Source: Sphaerolaimus hirsutus (Eukaryota; Nematoda; Chromadorea; Monhysterida; Sphaerolaimidae). Taken from it: 64,000 bases of DNA. A program made the position numbers and the translations under genes. The notes beneath the pieces are model-generated. The model did not search any database, was not told the DNA's origin, and saw only the letters and a list, made by a program, of their open reading frames with translations. Each line of letters starts with the position of its first letter. The first letter of the stretch is position 1. Where the stretch lies: contig OZ038454.1 in NCBI GenBank assembly GCA_964036195.1, forward strand, positions 22,740,315-22,804,314, written 5' to 3'. Positions 8,017 to 25,229 of this stretch are shown here, piece after piece.

Positions 8017-8224
8017 TACTTATTCCACATTCATATCTAATTAAGAAATGCACATGAAAAAACAATGTGGAATATACATTGCCATGTTCATTCACTTTGC
8101 CCTGCTCGTTTACATTGCCCCCCAAAATGGCTTATGAAACAATACATTGGCGGTCAATAAAATCGAAGAAATACGGTAGTTTAGAATGCATTTTACTAGA
8201 AAAATGTCTACCTACCTATATTTA

Positions 8225-8640
8225 CCGTATTACCCCAAATTATCCCCCCCCCCCCTTGAATTAACCCCCCCCCCCCTCGAATTAACCCCCCCCTCAAAAT
8301 GGGCTGGGGAAATAATAAACCCCCCCTCGAAATACCCCCCTCCGGAATGATGTACATCATGTATGCAATGTACATGACGTATTTATTACTACTTATTTGC
8401 ATCGCAGCTACTCTTATACGCTCATTTGTGTACAGATGTACATCTATAGTTCTGTGTATTGTATAGAATCTATGTATTCTCACATTTATTACCGTTTTTG
8501 TGTAAGAAATAGCGTATTCTTTACTACGAATTCCACGAAATTTTCTGGCGAAATAATAAAACCCCCCCTCGAATTAACCCCCCCTCAAATTTTGCTGGCG
8601 AAATAATAAACCCCCATGGGGGTATTTCGAGGTAATACGG
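8225..8640. mobile_element. TA-flanked CCGTATT MITE
   Basis: TA|CCGTATTACCCCAAATTATC to TTTCGAGGTAATACGG|TA, 416 bp, C-tract rich. The interior has ATGTACATCATGTATGCAA, shared with 22154-22665 and 43096-43500. Confidence 0.75.
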
Positions 8641-15192: not shown

Positions 15193-16614
15193 CTTTTCCT
15201 CCACAAGTAGATACTCATCAGGTTCATTGTGTGTCTGCTCTACCTCGTTCTCAACCACATTCTCTTCATTCTCATATCCATGATCATCCTCACATCCATC
15301 ACCAACAACTGCACCATCTTTCTCATCACTTCCTTGGTCCTTATCGCCATCAAATTGATCCTTATCACCATTCTCATCATGTCCACTCAAATGGTAACTC
15401 TCATGCATCTGATGCTCTAGATGTTCATGCGTGGGCATGGTGATTTGAATGATCTCCCTTGGTGATGAAGTCGCATCACTGAGTGCAGCCTGCTCTGGCA
15501 TGGCGGAAACTTCAATATCTGCCATTGCATCTGGATCCTGTGTGAGTTCATCAGGTGCATGAACTTCATGTTGAATTTCGGATGCCTGTTCATGTTCGTC
15601 TACAGCAAACTGCTGCTCATGCTCTACGCTATGCGTGCTGCTCATTTCTGAGGCAGCTCTTAGCGCGTCATTGGCTGTGGTGATGGCCATTTCACTCCTG
15701 TCTGGCTCATGTTCCGTGTCTGAATGGTGTGAATCGCTGGCTTGGTTCTCTTTATTTTCCTGTGTGATGCCATCAATTTCTTCAGCCACATTGGAATCTT
15801 TTTCAGAGTGGTCTTCAGAGTGGTCTTCAGAGACGTGATCTTCAGTAGTGGGATTGTCAACCTCAGTGTTCACAGCTTCATTTGAGGCATGCTGAACATT
15901 CACATGCACTTTGCTGTCATCACTGTCATTCACATGGTCATCATCATGAATAATGTCATTTTCTGCAGTCACTGATTCTGGCTCTGGCTCATCTATGGCC
16001 ATCTGGTCACTTTGATCACAAAGTTCATTCTGTGCATTTTCACCTTGGTTTTCTTGTTCAGGCGGTACTTTTTCTGGATCAGGTGCATCAGCTGCTGAAA
16101 TTTCAGAGATGATGTTAGCATCTACATGGACCTGGTCAGATTCATTTGAAACAGGGTGAAGTCCTTCATGGTCAACTGCATCATGTTCTGAGGGACTGCC
16201 ATCTGGTGATTGAACTTCCACTCTTTCATCATCTAATTCAACATTGCCATTTGACTGAATGTCAGTCAACTCTGATTGCTCACATTCAACAGTGTTCTGT
16301 GAATTGAGAAGCTCCTCAACTTGCTGGGAATCCATATCAGTGCCCTGCGCCTGGTCTGCTCCCTGCAAACTGCCACTATCATTGTGTTCAGGCTCTTCAA
16401 ATGCTTCCTCATGCTTTGCAGTGTCTGGTGTCAATGTGACTTTGACGCAACTCTCTGTGTCATTTATGACATCATTTGAGGTGCTACCCTCAGGCACTTC
16501 CTCGGAGTTGCGTGGAGTTCTGGGAGAGGTATCCAAATCTGCTTTTTGTGGACCCTCGTCTGATGGTACATGTTGAATTGTGACTGGTTCGTGATGCTCT
16601 GGGTCTGGGTCAGT
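15193..16614 (-). CDS. Exon 11: large 474-codon acidic exon (residues 696-1169)
   Basis: Acceptor TTTTACCTCAG opens in phase 0 as TDPDPEHHEPVTIQHV. The exon is dominated by Asp, Glu, Ser, His and Asn and ends DEYLLVEEK before a phase-0 donor AAG|GTTATT. It includes EDHSEDHSEKDS-type short repeats and many EHE/DEH runs, so it is probably intrinsically disordered. The open frame continues 18 codons past the donor (VIFNFFVTLV...) into AT-rich sequence that reads as intron. The composition would suit a flexible or cation-binding linker, but no function can be assigned from sequence. Confidence 0.88.
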
Positions 16615-16849
16615 CTGAGGTAAAATGGGTGTTTTGTGTATTTAGGTTCACAGGCTGGGTGCACTTCCAGACCCAGTAAAATGCTTTGTAAAATTGCAAA
16701 ATTTCATTGTCATTTTACATGACATGACAACATTACAGGGCATTTTACATTATTTTTGACACTTGCATTTTGACTTTACAGACCATTTTTGCAACACATT
16801 TAACATTTTACAGGGCATTTATAAGGTCTGATAGCATGTGTCACCAAAC
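16615..16849 (-). mobile_element. Intron 10, containing a degenerate copy of the same element family
   Basis: Most of this 235-bp intron is element-like, with repeats of AAATGCCCTGTAAAATG. The arm at 16655-16684 matches the end of intron 6 closely, including the outer CTG (CAG on the minus strand). The used acceptor is 40 bases further on, at 16614, because exon 11 from 16654 would be out of frame. The left arm is eroded. Either an old introner with a shifted acceptor or an element inserted in an existing intron would fit. Confidence 0.5.
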
Positions 16850-17215
16850 CTGGCTTTCTCCCTCATCATTTCCCACATCAGCAGTCTCAAGCACTGAACC
16901 CTCATTTTCATTTGCACGTGTGCCAGTGTCACTGTCTTCTGTTTTTCTGTCATGTTCAGTTTCCACATTGACAACTGGCACCTCAATCATGAAATTATCA
17001 TCACCATGGTTAGATAATTCATCATTTTCAAGCGACCTCGCTTTTGGGTCGTCATTTTCTGAGTTCTGAATTGATTCTTCAGAAATCTTGGGTAGTTCTG
17101 GGTCATTTTCCGCCACTCTGACATTTGATTCAGTGAACTCGGGTGAAATCGCGTTGCTGGCACCATTGGTTTCTGATGGCTGAATTTCTGGTGGTTGATG
17201 TTCGTCGAATGAATC
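16850..17215 (-). CDS. Exon 10: acidic segment (residues 574-695)
   Basis: Acceptor TCCACATAG, then DSFDEHQPPEIQPSETNGAS to GNDEGESQ, 122 codons, phase 0. It contains a short hydrophobic patch, FMIEVPVVNVET, amid Asp/Glu/Asn. Donor CAG|GTTTGG. The 235-bp intron that follows contains a degenerate copy of the element family that makes introns 3 and 6. Confidence 0.82.
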
Positions 17216-17369
17216 CTATGTGGATGAGTTCAGTTAACCTAGTTCAGTGTGTCGATGCCAAAGGATGAAACTTTGCGTAAAGCCATAACTGTGCATAAAT
17301 TGATTTTGCATAAGCAGAATGAAATTTTGAAATTTTCAACATCTTTCAACAAAAATCGTTAAAACAATT

Positions 17370-18454
17370 GAGGCCTCTACTTCTAAAAGTCGACAAGTCC
17401 ACAAAATGCGATTTTGAGTAAATCGCATTTTAAGTTTCCGATCCAATTCCAGACCCGTGGTGCGTGTTCAATTTGGCTCTCTCATGCTTTCCATTGAGTT
17501 CCATATGTTGACAATAATGCTGCGATTACAGCTCGGGCGTAAAATTGACCGGGCGTAAAATTGATTTTTGGGCGTAAAATTAATTACAGGTGAATGGATA
17601 AACATATGGCGTTGTAATTTCAGTCAAAGAAAGCGCACATGCAGATGTTGCTTGTGTCCAAAGCTCATCAGTTTATTTTAATTGTACTAGAAGTTATGAA
17701 TTTTGGCGCAAATTTTTTTAATTTTACGCCCACATTTTACGCCAGTTACAGCGCATAATTGGAAAAATTGTGCTAAAATTCATAACTCCCAGTACGATCA
17801 AAATAAACTCATGAGCTTTGGACACAAGAAACGTCTGCATCTAAGCTTTCTTTGACTGAAATGACAATGTCGCATCCTTATCCATTCATCTGTAATTAAT
17901 TTTACGCCCAAAATCAATTTTACGCCCGGTCAATTTTACGCCCGAGCTGTAATCGCAGCATAAAGTGTGTAATTTTCAGCCCCTGCTCTCAACGTATATG
18001 TGAAAAATCGAGTGTCCATAAATTTCCATTCGGTCAGAGCAAAACTGTTTTTGGGAGGAAAATGGACTTGTCGACTTCTTGCACTCAGGAGCATTTTTGT
18101 TCCCGGTGAAGGCGACTCTGCCTTATGGGCAATTTATGGACTTGTCGACTTTTAGAAGTAGCTGTCCATGACGGACTTATCACATTTCTTGCTTTTTTCC
18201 CATAAAAAACGAAGGCGAAGGGTGGACTTGTCGACTTTGAGCCCGAAACTAAATGGACTTGTCCACTTCTTGCCCGAAATTTTTGCATTTTTCCCAAAAA
18301 ATGTCAAATTTGGCACTTTGCCATATGGGCATGTGAGGTCCAAAAATTGATGGAAAATGATAAAAAATGTGCGGAAGGAGACCCAGATGATGTTTCCGGG
18401 CCTAACTCCAAATTTTCAATTTTGTGACTTGTCGACTTTAGAAGTAGACGCCTC
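17370..18454. mobile_element. Element with GAGGCCTCTACTTCTAAAAG ends (intron 9)
   Basis: Inverted ends GAGGC(C)TCTACTTC...GACTTGTCGACTTT, flanked by AATT on both sides. The motif GGACTTGTCGACTT recurs internally at least five times. It contains the nested palindrome 17518-17960. A diverged relative lies at about 13440-13650 in intron 13. Confidence 0.55.
17518..17960. mobile_element. Harbinger-like palindromic MITE, TAA target
   Basis: TGCTGCGATTACAGCTCG and its inverse at the two ends, flanked by TAA on both sides, with mirror arms of about 200 bp (GGGCGTAAAATT units; AGAAAGCGCA). The 3-bp TAA duplication is typical of PIF/Harbinger. Confidence 0.75.
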
Positions 18455-18569
18455 AATTATCATATAACTTGCAGACGGCAAAATAAGTATCCATTCAAAT
18501 TTCTTATGTCTTATTTCATAAACGCAGAGCATATAACAAACTGCAGTTTTTGGCAATTACATTTTACTT

Positions 18570-18681
18570 ACCTATTTACGCTGATTTCGGGTGGGGGTAT
18601 TTTGAGGGGGGTTATAAATTGCAGTGCCCGTTTTTAGGAGGTATTTGTAGGAAGGGGGGGGGGTATTTCGAGAAAATACGG
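18570..18681. mobile_element. Right part of a CCGTATT-type MITE (intron 9)
   Basis: G-tract arm and right end GTATTTCGAGAAAATACGG|TA are present. The left end is missing or too diverged. Confidence 0.5.
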
Positions 18682-18837
18682 TACCTATATAAAAATCACA
18701 TTCTTTACATGGTAAATTTCACCGAAAAGTGTGCCGTCACTGTCAGTAAACGCTTTATTAAGATAAATATGAACTCGTGTGAACTAAAAATCAACATACC
18801 AAAAACATTCAACAATAAAAATTCCCCCAAAACAAAC

Positions 18838-18984
18838 CTGCACAGGCAGAGCAGCTGCGTCATCATCACTGCCAGACTCTGGCACAATTACTTCACTTTC
18901 GACATTTTCGTCTTCCGACGTGTGCACATTCGCCATTGTGGACATGTTGTCGGTGTCCTTGTGCCCGGGTTTTGCGCTATCGTC
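18838..18984 (-). CDS. Exon 9: acidic segment (residues 525-573)
   Basis: Acceptor GCTTTCCAG, then DDSAKPGHKDTDNMSTMAN to SGSDDDAAALPVQ, 49 codons, phase 0 to phase 0, donor CAG|GTTTGT. Acidic, Ser/Asp-rich, no recognised domain. The surrounding introns carry repeat remnants, but the exon itself does not. Confidence 0.8.
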
Positions 18985-19070
18985 CTGGAAAGCGTGAATG
19001 GGAAATATTTGCAGTGGCATTTGAGTGCAGTTGAGAGTGGATTGTGTAGGGTGAAATATTGACATGGGTG

Positions 19071-19195
19071 CACAGTTGTTAAAATGTATTCACATTTACT
19101 CAAAAAATACATATACTCGAGTACTGGGTCCTGTACTGACCTGTACGCGTACTTTGAAAAGTAAACATGTACAGAAAATATATTTCAGAAATTTC
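19071..19195. mobile_element. Truncated hAT-like GAGTAC-family left end (intron 8)
   Basis: CACAGTTGTTAAAATGTA, then ATACTCGAGTACTGGGT and AGAAAATATATTTCAG. The right half is absent. Confidence 0.5.
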
Positions 19196-19407
19196 AATAT
19201 GCAACTTTTGTTGCTAAAATAAAGAAAGAAACCATGCAGAAATCATATCATCTTCCTGTAGATCTGGAAAATACTAAATAATCATTAGAAAACGACATCT
19301 GTTACGTCTTCCTGTGTAAAAACTGCCCTCACATCTTGAAAGCTAATTATACAGTTGTTCTTTGTCAGTTAGTGCGTGCAGCGCCAATCTACTCGCAAAA
19401 GACCTAC

Positions 19408-19608
19408 CTCAGTTTGAGCATGATCTGTATGCCGGGCATCACTATCTACTTGATTCGCGCAATTGTTGTCAGCTTGTTCGATTTCTGTGTCATTGCCATT
19501 CAATCGGGCATCTGTTTGGCATTTTGCCAATTTTTCTGTTGATTCATCGATATGTTCGTTTGATGACGCCGCCGGGATTTGGGAATTGTTTTCACCAATT
19601 TCGACGTC
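19408..19608 (-). CDS. Exon 8: acidic Asn/Asp-rich segment (residues 458-524)
   Basis: Acceptor ATTCGCAG, then DVEIGENNSQIPAASSNEH to DSDARHTDHAQTE, 67 codons, phase 0 at both ends, donor GAG|GTAGGT. An ATG 30 bases upstream (MTKNVWNHSQ) is in frame, but it precedes a good acceptor and follows an in-frame stop, so I treat it as intronic. The segment is acidic and probably disordered. Confidence 0.8.
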
Positions 19609-20465
19609 CTGCGAATGGTTCCAGACATTTTTGGTCATACTTAATGGTCATTTGAGTGGCAAGGAAGCCCAGTGAACGCGCGAAGTTCACTCAGCTGGGA
19701 ATTAAATAATTCAGACCTTTCACACGATCGTTTTGGGTATTCTGATTTTTGGCGGGTCTGTGCCTGTCGGCATGTAAACCGTTTGGCATCTAGACAACGG
19801 ATCAGGGGTTTGCCAAGGTATTGACCCTCGCAAGGGTTCATAGATAGCAAATCAGAAATAGATAGCTGAAAATTATATTGGGGGGTCACTGGGGCTAAAA
19901 TATATAAATATGATATATATCGCAAAATTGACAAAATTGAGCATAATTTCTGTGGGAAATCAGGAAAGATTGCTCAAAGTATGCTCCACAGATATACCTA
20001 GATAGTTGAGTGATCTGTGGGGGTATCAGGGGGTAGCCTCAGGATAGCTAGCTAGCTGAGCAGCCGCCTCCTCCATGGGACCACCGAACGCGTCTAGATG
20101 CCAAGCGGGTTAGATGCCAAGCAAGCCTACGCCACTTTTGGCAAGTGTGTAAGGTACTTATTTTCATCTATCTAAATACCTAAATACCGACCCTCTGGCC
20201 AAAATAAGCGCGCGGTTTACAAAGGTATTGGAGTTATTTAACGGTGATTTCTACAAACTTTTCGCTATCAGTCTCATCATTTACCGTAGTGCCAAATTGA
20301 GCATTCCCGTCTGTGCAAGCTAAATTTTCAGACTTCACACCCCCATTTCAGCAAAAAAAGTATCGAACAGAAAGCGAAACAAGTAGCAAAAAGTATCCCA
20401 TGATAATTATCCACAAAAAGGTAAAACAAAAATCGATGAATTATTTTAAAATTCCCACAACGCAC

Positions 20466-20615
20466 CTCCAAATGTTCATTCAAATTGTCATTGATCGTGT
20501 CCTGATCAACATGTGCACCAATTCCCTCAACATGGACCTCACCCCCACCATCATCCGCGATATGTCCATTTCCATTCTCCAGGGCAGCGTGTTCATGCGA
20601 ATCCAAATCCAAAGG
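20466..20615 (-). CDS. Exon 7: acidic segment (residues 408-457)
   Basis: Fifty codons, PLDLDSHEHAALENGNG to DNLNEHLE, Asp/Glu/His/Gly/Asn-rich. It starts right after the CAG that closes the transposon-derived intron 6. Phase-0 donor GAG|GTGCGT. It continues the acidic region of exons 8-11 in composition and phase, which supports the chain. No domain is seen. Confidence 0.78.
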
Positions 20616-20786
20616 CTGCGGGCACTTCCAGACCCTGTAAAGTGTCAAGTGCCACGTAAAGTGTCAAAAGTCAAGTAAAATGCCCTGGAAAATGGCAAAC
20701 GTCCGTTTGCCATTTTCCAGAGCATTTTTCATGACTTTTGACACTTTACATGACACTTGACCCTTTAGAAAGTCTGGGAGCGGCAC
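20616..20786 (-). mobile_element. Intron 6 = complete 171-bp introner-like palindromic transposon
   Basis: The whole intron is one long inverted repeat. On the minus strand it begins GTGCCGCTCCCAGACTTT and ends ACAGGGTCTGGAAGTGCCCG plus CAG. Internal arms (AAGTGTCA, AAAAGTCA, GGAAAATGGCAAACG) mirror each other. The bases before the donor are CTG and those closing the intron are CAG, a C(A/T)G pair. Both splice sites are therefore element or target-site sequence. Confidence 0.8.
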
Positions 20787-20992
20787 CAGATCGTGTCCAT
20801 TCAAAGTGGCCTCGTCGGCGGCGGCGGCGGCGCCGTTGAACTGCACGTCGTGGCCGCGCTGCGCGGCGCTCAACTTGGCGTCGCAGTGCCGCTCGCTGTT
20901 GGCGTTCAGGTCGCCGGCCGCGTCGACGCCCGCCCCCTGCTGCATGTCGTCCACGGCGCTGGCGGACATCGTCACGTCGGATAGGGGTGTGT
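20787..20992 (-). CDS. Exon 6: Ala/Asp-rich segment (residues 340-407)
   Basis: Acceptor AAACCCAG with a weak pyrimidine tract. The first two bases AC complete a codon begun by G at the end of exon 5 (Asp). It reads TPLSDVTMSASAVDD and continues to EATLNGHDL in 68 codons. The internal ATG (TMSAS) could be an alternative start if exons 1-5 belong to another transcript. Its phase-0 donor CTG|GTGCCG is the outer end of the transposon that forms intron 6. Confidence 0.72.
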
Positions 20993-21757: not shown

Positions 21758-22147
21758 CCGTATTTCCTCGTACTAGCCCCCCTCGAAATACCCCCTCAAA
21801 ATGGCCACTGTGAATTTAAATACCCCCGCCCCACCCCTTCGAAATACCCCCCAAATTGAGTGTCAATGTCAAAAGCTGCGGTTTGTGGTCCGAGCAATGC
21901 AGAACACACGTTAAAACAATGACTGTGTTATGTTAGAACATTGTTTATACCATCTAGGTTTATACCATACTTATACAAACAAGTCTATAGACTCTTATAC
22001 ATGGTGCTTATTGTTGTATTTTTCTATGTCTGCGTACGTTACACACAACTAATTATTTAGCACTGGCATTGTGTCGAAATAATAAACCCCCGCAAAATTC
22101 TCACTCTGAAAAAATTAAACACCGGGGGGTATTCCTAGGAAATACGG
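21758..22147. mobile_element. TA-flanked CCGTATT MITE
   Basis: TA|CCGTATTTCCTCGTACTAG to CCTAGGAAATACGG|TA, 390 bp. It abuts the next copy with only six bases between, which suggests preferred insertion near existing ends. Confidence 0.75.
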
Positions 22148-22153
22148 TATATA

Positions 22154-22665
22154 CCGTATTACCTCGAATTATCCCCCCCCCCCTTGAATTAACCCCCCCC
22201 TCGAATTAACCCCCCCTCAAAATGGGCTGGGGAAATAATAAACCCCCCCCCTTGAATTAACCCCCCCCTCGAATTAACCCCCCCTCAAAATGGGCTGGGG
22301 AAATAATAAACCCCCCCCCCTCGAAATACCCCCCCCCCCTTCGGAATGATGTACGTCATGTACATAATAAATACGTCATGTACGCAATGTACATTATGTA
22401 TATTACTGTTAATTTGCATTGCAGCTACACATAGAGTAGTTTGTGTAGCTATCTACGTTTTTATGTCCAAATATATCCTGTTTGGACACATTTATTACCT
22501 ATTTTGGGTACGCAAATGCCTACTATTTACTACGATCCTTACGAAAATCTCTGACGAAATAATAACCCCCCCCCCCTCGAATAAACCCCCCCCTCGAATT
22601 AACCCCCCCTCAAATTTTGCTGGCGAAATAATAAACCCCCATGGGGGTATTTCGAGGTAATACGG
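22154..22665. mobile_element. TA-flanked CCGTATT MITE with duplicated C-tract arm
   Basis: TA|CCGTATTACCTCGAATTATC to TTTCGAGGTAATACGG|TA. The left arm unit (CTCGAATTAACC ... GGGGAAATAATAAACCC) is present twice in tandem, accounting for its greater length (512 bp). Confidence 0.75.
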
Positions 22666-24260: not shown

Positions 24261-24334
24261 CGGGAAAGTTTGAGATGGTATTATTAGGGAGAGGGACTAC
24301 AAGTACTGCTTAAGTTGGCTAGGTGTCACCCCAG

Positions 24335-24771
24335 GTGCCAATCCCAAGCCCTGTAAAGTGTAAAGTAAAGTGTCAAATGTAAAGTAAAGTGTCNNNNNNN
24401 NNNNNNNNNNNNNNNNNNNNNNNNNNNNNNNNNNNNNNNNNNNNNNNNNNNNNNNNNNNNNNNNNNNNNNNNNNNNNNNNNNNNNNNNNNNNNNNNNNNN
24501 NNNNNNNNNNNNNNNNNNNNNNNNNNNNNNNNNNNNNNNNNNNNNNNNNNNNNNNNNNNNNNNNNNNNNNNNNNNNNNNNNNNNNNNNNNNNNACCCTGA
24601 AAATGCCCTGTATGAATGTCAATTAACATGTCAAGTGTTAGAGTCAAGCAAAATGTTATGAAAAAAGTTGAAACAACCGGGAAAAGATATAAAAAGAGTA
24701 CATTTTACCAGGCATTTTACCTTTGACACTTTGCATGACATTTGACACTTTACAGGGTCTGGGTGTGGCCC
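24335..24771. mobile_element. CWG-flanked MITE of the introner family, in intron 5, interrupted by an assembly gap
   Basis: The left end is CAG|GTGCCAATCCCAAGCC and the right end CAGGGTCTGGGTGTGGCCC|CAG, so both flanks are CAG. The body has TAAAGTGTCA-type repeats. The N run hides its centre. Confidence 0.6.
24394..24593. other. Assembly gap (200 N)
   Basis: A run of exactly 200 N inside a palindromic repeat. The true length is probably unknown, and the inverted repeat is a likely cause of the gap. Confidence 0.99.
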
Positions 24772-25059
24772 CAGGGTAATAATAAGTGGGCTGAGGTGAG
24801 ATTTGCATTGGCAAAAATACTACATACATCTTGGAGTGCGACTGTTTGTGTTCAGACACGGCGATGACACTTTATAAAGTGCCCAAATGTATCACAGTAC
24901 ATCACAAACCATACAAAGTATGCATATGTGAAGCATGCTCCACTGAAATTAGCACAGCGTGTGATAAATAATTATGAATGGTGAAGCCTGTGGAGTATTT
25001 GACTGTGTCACGGAAGAATTCAAGAGGTGTAAATATTCACGGATTTCAGGCACAAACAG

Positions 25060-25201
25060 GGGGGCAGTCTCAGACCCTGTAAAATGCCCTGCAAAATAGC
25101 AAGGTATGTTTACCATTTTGCAGGGCATATTATATGACTTTTGACACTTTGCATGACATTTCACATTTTACAGGGCATTTTACAGGGTCTAGGACTGGCA
25201 C
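25060..25201. mobile_element. CWG-flanked MITE of the introner family
   Basis: Left end CAG|GGGGGCAGTCTCAGACC and right end GGGTCTAGGACTGGCAC|TAG, with mirrored TGCCCTG/CAGGGCA arms. The right flank has mutated from CAG to TAG. It lies in intron 5. Confidence 0.55.
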
Positions 25202-25229
25202 TAGATCCACTTCGGCAAGTCCACACATC

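Follow-up and report, generated by a model that had tools for sequence, protein, structure and literature searches.

A palindromic MITE family that appears to become exactly excised introns in an animal genome, even without the usual end signal

The window analyzed here, a stretch of 64,000 nucleotides (C6:22740315-22804314) from a genome of 348 Mb in 762 contigs, carries a gene on its minus strand at 15193-20969. This gene has six or more exons, all of them divisible by three in length and joined in phase 0, and encodes an acidic protein of 823 amino acids so far. The upstream coding exon (20787-20969, minus strand, 183 nt) starts with ATG and ends in phase 0; the downstream coding exon (20466-20615, minus strand, 150 nt) continues in phase 0 and is followed by four more phase-0 exons with GT..AG borders. 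The initial annotation had described a frame that runs on across the junction, which agrees with the phase-0 join of the two exons. It had also called the intervening intron 'intron 6', a number that we could not confirm: counted from the ATG, 20616-20786 is intron 1, that is, the first coding intron. When the element described below is retained, stops within it close both exon frames. A search of a protein collection with the 227-residue N-terminal part of the protein returned no homologue at E <= 0.001, so that the splice proposed here rests on frame, splice sites and the behavior of the element family.

The intron (minus strand, 171 nt) corresponds to a 168-bp palindromic MITE, a putative introner, followed by CAG. 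The element (20619-20786, minus strand, GTGCCG...GTGCCCG) was delimited by its inverted repeat, its fold and the ends typical of the family, and its left end is the splice donor. The closing CAG (20616-20618, minus strand) is both the splice acceptor and the right copy of a 3-bp target duplication; its left partner, with one mismatch, is the CTG (20787-20789, minus strand) that forms the last codon of the upstream exon. On the minus strand, the borders read ...GATCTG / GTGCCG...GTGCCCGCAG / CCTTTG..., and the intron runs as GTGCCGCTCCCAGAC...GTCTGGAAGTGCCCGCAG between the exon-final CTG and the CCTTTGG of the next exon. The two inverted-repeat arms (20616-20701 and 20704-20789) are 86 nt each, 84% complementary and separated by a 2-nt spacer. 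Folded as RNA, the minus strand of 20600-20800 reached -118.8 kcal/mol; 200 shuffled versions gave -52.3 (sd 4.1; z -16.3), and no shuffle went as low: the palindrome at 20616-20789 is real and far beyond chance. Pairing in this fold takes in every internal AG (8) and every internal GT (11), and donor and acceptor are separated by two steps. The earlier description of the intron as one palindromic inverted-repeat element, whose initial GTGCC provides the GT donor, is thus borne out.

Other family members were seen in the window. A decayed copy lies in another intron of the same gene (16615-16849, minus strand), where the donor is CAG/GTTTGG and the acceptor CCTCAG is found about 40 nt past the right end of the element. 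On the plus strand, a longer copy of about 440 bp occupies 24334-24774, with 200 N inside (24394-24593), and the window search for the family yielded a further copy at 25060-25202. The window also contains C-rich repeat blocks at 8200-8600 and 22140-22660, with units such as CCCCCCCCTCGAATTAA.

The absence of other genomic copies had been named as a finding that would speak against an introner; copies are in fact abundant. A 186-base query produced 84 matches in the genome (40 were scored of 2,636 first-look candidates), and a 27-base left-end consensus, allowing at most one mismatch, produced 4,750 (2,457 and 2,293), while the reversed control produced 0. We drew two samples, neither of which is random over the genome: 39 copies chosen by similarity (L043 proved not to be a copy), and 70 copies in their order of occurrence on contig C1. 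Of these 70, 64 show both ends; the six lacking a right end were dropped, and 59 of the 64 are distinct. Together the samples represent 91 distinct loci. The family element is a palindrome, mostly of 140-200 bp, with ends that differ when read inward: GTGCCA on the left and GGGGCA on the right. Among the 59 distinct C1 copies, the left end is identical in all by design of the search, and the right end is mostly TGCCCC followed by CNG. In two copies (L100 and L101) the right end resembles the left, being GTGCC or intermediate, and these may represent symmetric sister forms. Three near-identical loci on contig C13 (L013, L014 and L029) each combine a thrombospondin-type exon with the element, the right end of L014 being disturbed; this set is probably a local duplication.

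The triplet preceding the left end is CNG in 58 of the 59 C1 copies (CTG in 27, CAG in 25, CCG in 3 and CGG in 3) and TAG in the remaining one. The flanking triplets are identical in 41 of the 59 (21 CAG, 19 CTG and 1 CGG), so that 40 have a CWG duplication (CAG/CAG or CTG/CTG); the unequal flanks comprise CTG/CAG in five copies, CCG/CAG in three and ten single cases, including one each of CAG/CTG, CAG/CCG and TAG/CAG and some with an unclear right end. Restricted to copies of this sample with CAG or CTG only, the left-by-right table (21, 1, 5, 19) gives a Fisher p of 1.8e-7. Identical flanking CNG is a 3-bp target duplication; inspection of the copy flanks by eye disclosed no 8-bp, hAT-type duplication outside CWG. 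Exact counts over the genome for elements of 162-192 bp are 179 CAG/CAG, 117 CTG/CTG and 48 CTG/CAG. For CAG/CTG in the same size range, about 436 would be expected if both ends were independent. About half of the insertions sit at CTG. The closing CAG of the window intron had been read as the partner of the CTG left in the exon, which fits these counts of CTG...CTG and CTG...CAG copies, and the CNG duplication likewise sustains the idea that the element supplies one splice site and the duplicated target the other.

When flanks were joined at the element ends, a known protein or domain became continuous at 15 of the 91 loci, all in sense. Residue alignments to solved proteins run through the join, without a gap at that point, at L008 (GRK2), L079 (AMPK gamma-1), L106 (BCKDHA), L039 (TRAP1), L023 (intersectin-1), L107 (SLC23A1) and L071 (chondroitin synthase 2); the similarity of L108 to DHX36-type helicases is weak (E 7e-6) and comes with no Pfam match. 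Pfam domains span the join at L023, L071, L106 and L107 and, by Pfam alone, at L009, L010, L013, L016, L058, L070 and L105. At L016 the donor is GC rather than GT, and the Pfam score of 21 lies under the cut-off of 27. Six loci with a Pfam match not clearly over the join (L015, L035, L038, L051, L091 and L097) were left out of the 15; the joined flanks of L002, L004, L012 and L022 had no Pfam match, and 76 of the 91 loci had no domain proof over the join. The initial annotation had proposed to look for introns matching the element over its whole length; such introns are found indirectly, as protein continuity at the element ends, and the annotation's proposal of an intron-generating MITE family that restores the coding sequence gains support, at the level of sequence, from the 15 restored loci. 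Two of these, L070 (CTG...CAG) and L071 (CTG...CTG), are separated by about 1 kb on C1 and match consecutive portions of the Pfam family CHGN: they probably belong to one chondroitin-synthase gene that has both acceptor classes.

All 15 restored loci have the element in sense, which under random orientation has p 6e-5; the sense frames were first chosen by visual inspection. A blind test on the 20 longest frames of each orientation gave three sense frames with a match, two of them over the join (L106 and L071) and one ending at it (L097), and one antisense frame with a match, which is not over the join. Reading 118 antisense frames by eye yielded a single recognized protein, L115, which lies antisense near a GDT1/TMEM165-like exon; the Pfam GDT1 match covers residues 76-100 and the join falls at residue 50. 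Codon-usage scoring of sense versus antisense flanks proved too weak to be of use: of the 91 loci, 12 sense flanks and one antisense flank exceeded the threshold, and the sole antisense scorer, L107, is in sense by homology.

We consider it highly probable that this family consists of introners: MITEs, non-autonomous DNA transposons, whose insertion creates introns. Sense orientation and frame point to splicing. The left end would supply the GT donor and the duplicated target the acceptor. The ancestral kind of end may have been the G-rich right end, a change to GT at the left having created the donor. A sense insertion at CAG would then produce CAG/GTGCCA...CCCCCAG/, a ready GT-AG intron whose removal would leave the exon exactly restored. 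At CTG, a sense insertion would produce a GT...TG intron, for which exact removal would likewise be required, because conserved genes carry such copies. We propose that TTTTACAG, mostly located 19 nt before the end, may provide the AG for the first splicing step, and that the terminal AG or TG may then serve exon joining, the hairpin drawing both ends close to each other. The right triplet of some CTG copies would later have changed to CAG; the element of the window would be one of these.

The restored loci fall into two acceptor classes. An AG end is seen in six (L008, L013, L023, L039, L070 and L108, with TAG in L008 and L108), and nine are CTG...CTG loci (L009, L010, L016, L058, L071, L079, L105, L106 and L107), an insertion that implies an intron ending in TG. 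The motif ACAG occurs upstream of the right end in 20 of 21 CAG/CAG, 17 of 19 CTG/CTG and three of five CTG/CAG copies, 19 nt being its commonest distance from the end. In the folds of 58 copies, full pairing covers 284 of 404 AGs and 499 of 648 GTs, so that internal AGs are not all hidden, and the distance from donor to acceptor has a median of 6 (range 2-27). In human genes, according to the text consulted of PMC2374985, TG acceptors always have a companion AG no more than 28 nt away. This pattern would fit the use of AG for step one and of TG for step two, but the same source states that TG never serves as sole acceptor in those genes. The TRAP1 locus (L039) has a leucine at the join, as do the solved relatives; the CTG of this locus is therefore likely original and the right CAG the altered copy. 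Some CTG...CAG copies, the window element included, thus look like later conversions to a normal acceptor, a direction that for the window copy we infer. In the similarity-chosen sample, five CTG...CAG copies (L001, L023, L033, L035 and L039) stand against four CAG...CTG copies (L003, L024, L027 and L028), so that a one-way change toward AG is unsupported there. The chances seem to us about even that one MITE family made hundreds or more introns here and that, given its CWG target, roughly half of its new sense insertions are removed as sole GT...TG introns, the internal AG about 19 nt upstream being used for the first step only; one base change could later turn such introns into GT-AG.

The restoration of protein by taking out the element plus one triplet, in CAG and CTG copies alike, would also be obtained if the elements were cut from the DNA of body cells through the CNG duplication, like the internal eliminated sequences of ciliates and with no splicing, and GT...TG introns are unexpected from ordinary splicing. 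However, DNA removal needs neither the sense bias of 15 out of 15 nor an asymmetric GT end, both of which point to RNA, and we hold this reading to be very improbable. We give still less credence to the notion that old, ordinary introns were later hit by the MITE, its ends being splice sites by coincidence. The decayed copy within 16615-16849, with its acceptor about 40 nt beyond the element, has such an arrangement, but 15 loci restore their protein at the element's own borders, with the target duplication as exon edge.

A further possibility, which we find unlikely but well worth weighing, concerns the CTG...CTG copies only: these may not be spliced at TG, and instead use other sites (for example, TTTTACAG 19 nt upstream) or represent recent, harmful insertions. 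The presence of an AG 19 nt upstream in most copies argues for this, as does the human record, where TG acceptors serve only as alternatives to AG in the part of PMC2374985 consulted. Yet use of the upstream AG would leave 19 additional nt in the message and put the two sides out of frame, while both sides keep one conserved frame at nine such loci; and nine of 15 restored loci are too many for harmful insertions by chance.

If the introner reading with TG acceptors is true, sole GT-TG introns would allow the two steps of splicing to be studied apart, and CTG...CTG copies beside CTG...CAG copies may show the maturation of a new intron. Introners are a leading source of mass intron gain, with only two animal groups reported in the available text of PMC9860276. 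In the present family the parts are unusually plain: an end that would give the donor, a target that would give the acceptor, and a reason why half of the insertions would need TG. A short hairpin MITE with thousands of copies appears here to become an exactly excised intron even without the usual end signal.

Literature searches listed no report of this element family, and the sections seen of papers on Flustra (PMC13326412) and on chaetognaths (PMC12460157) contained nothing on such introns. Larvacean tunicates, as described in the part consulted of PMC13326754, are likewise animals with many non-GT/AG introns, for which introner transposons with weak splice sites are named there as a possible source. 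The mitochondrial contig of the present genome has 14,754 bases, and ATP6 (named by eye) is present in the 10 kb of it that were read. Mitochondrial COI reads through with TGA as Trp and has AGR at positions expected to be Ser. Tunicate mitochondria translate AGR as Gly, unlike the mitochondrial code found here, which reads AGR as Ser, and a tunicate host was rejected on this ground. A chaetognath host was rejected on account of ATP6, a gene that chaetognaths are not known to have. The case against an arthropod is weak: a search for Chitin_bind_4 gave no match, but neither did its controls. Among the COI matches listed, those with a species name reach no more than about 65-67% identity, and the two best (89% and 79%) carry none. 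The matches to GRK2, intersectin and chondroitin synthase indicate an animal.

Amoebophrya, a dinoflagellate, has introner elements with hairpin inverted repeats, direct repeats of 3-5 nt at exon borders and non-canonical splice sites, features that recall the present ones; in the sections consulted (PMC7789003), its inverted repeats measure 8-20 nt and its sites are highly varied, whereas here a single near-full-length palindrome has fixed ends. The NuwaI transposons of the PHIS (PIF/Harbinger) superfamily, mainly found in animals, produce 5'-CWG-3' duplications and have inverted repeats that usually start with GGG, as far as the text seen of PMC4482050 describes them. Our element has the CWG duplication as well; of its two ends, the right one (GGGGCA) is of the GGG type and the left one (GTGCCA) is not, and a few of its targets are CCG or CGG. 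We regard a relation to NuwaI, suggested by the duplication and the right end, as putative. Gozashti et al. 2022 (PMC9860276), in the available text, surveyed 3,325 genomes and report introners from no more than two animal groups, of which copepods are named. Those introns, too, were made by transposons that have terminal inverted repeats and duplicate their target, and one class (their Fig. 2C) carries its own 5' splice site and borrows the 3' site from the duplication, the mode in which the present family would work. The animal family described here differs from them, as they appear in that text, by its 4,750 left-end matches and its many putative TG acceptors.
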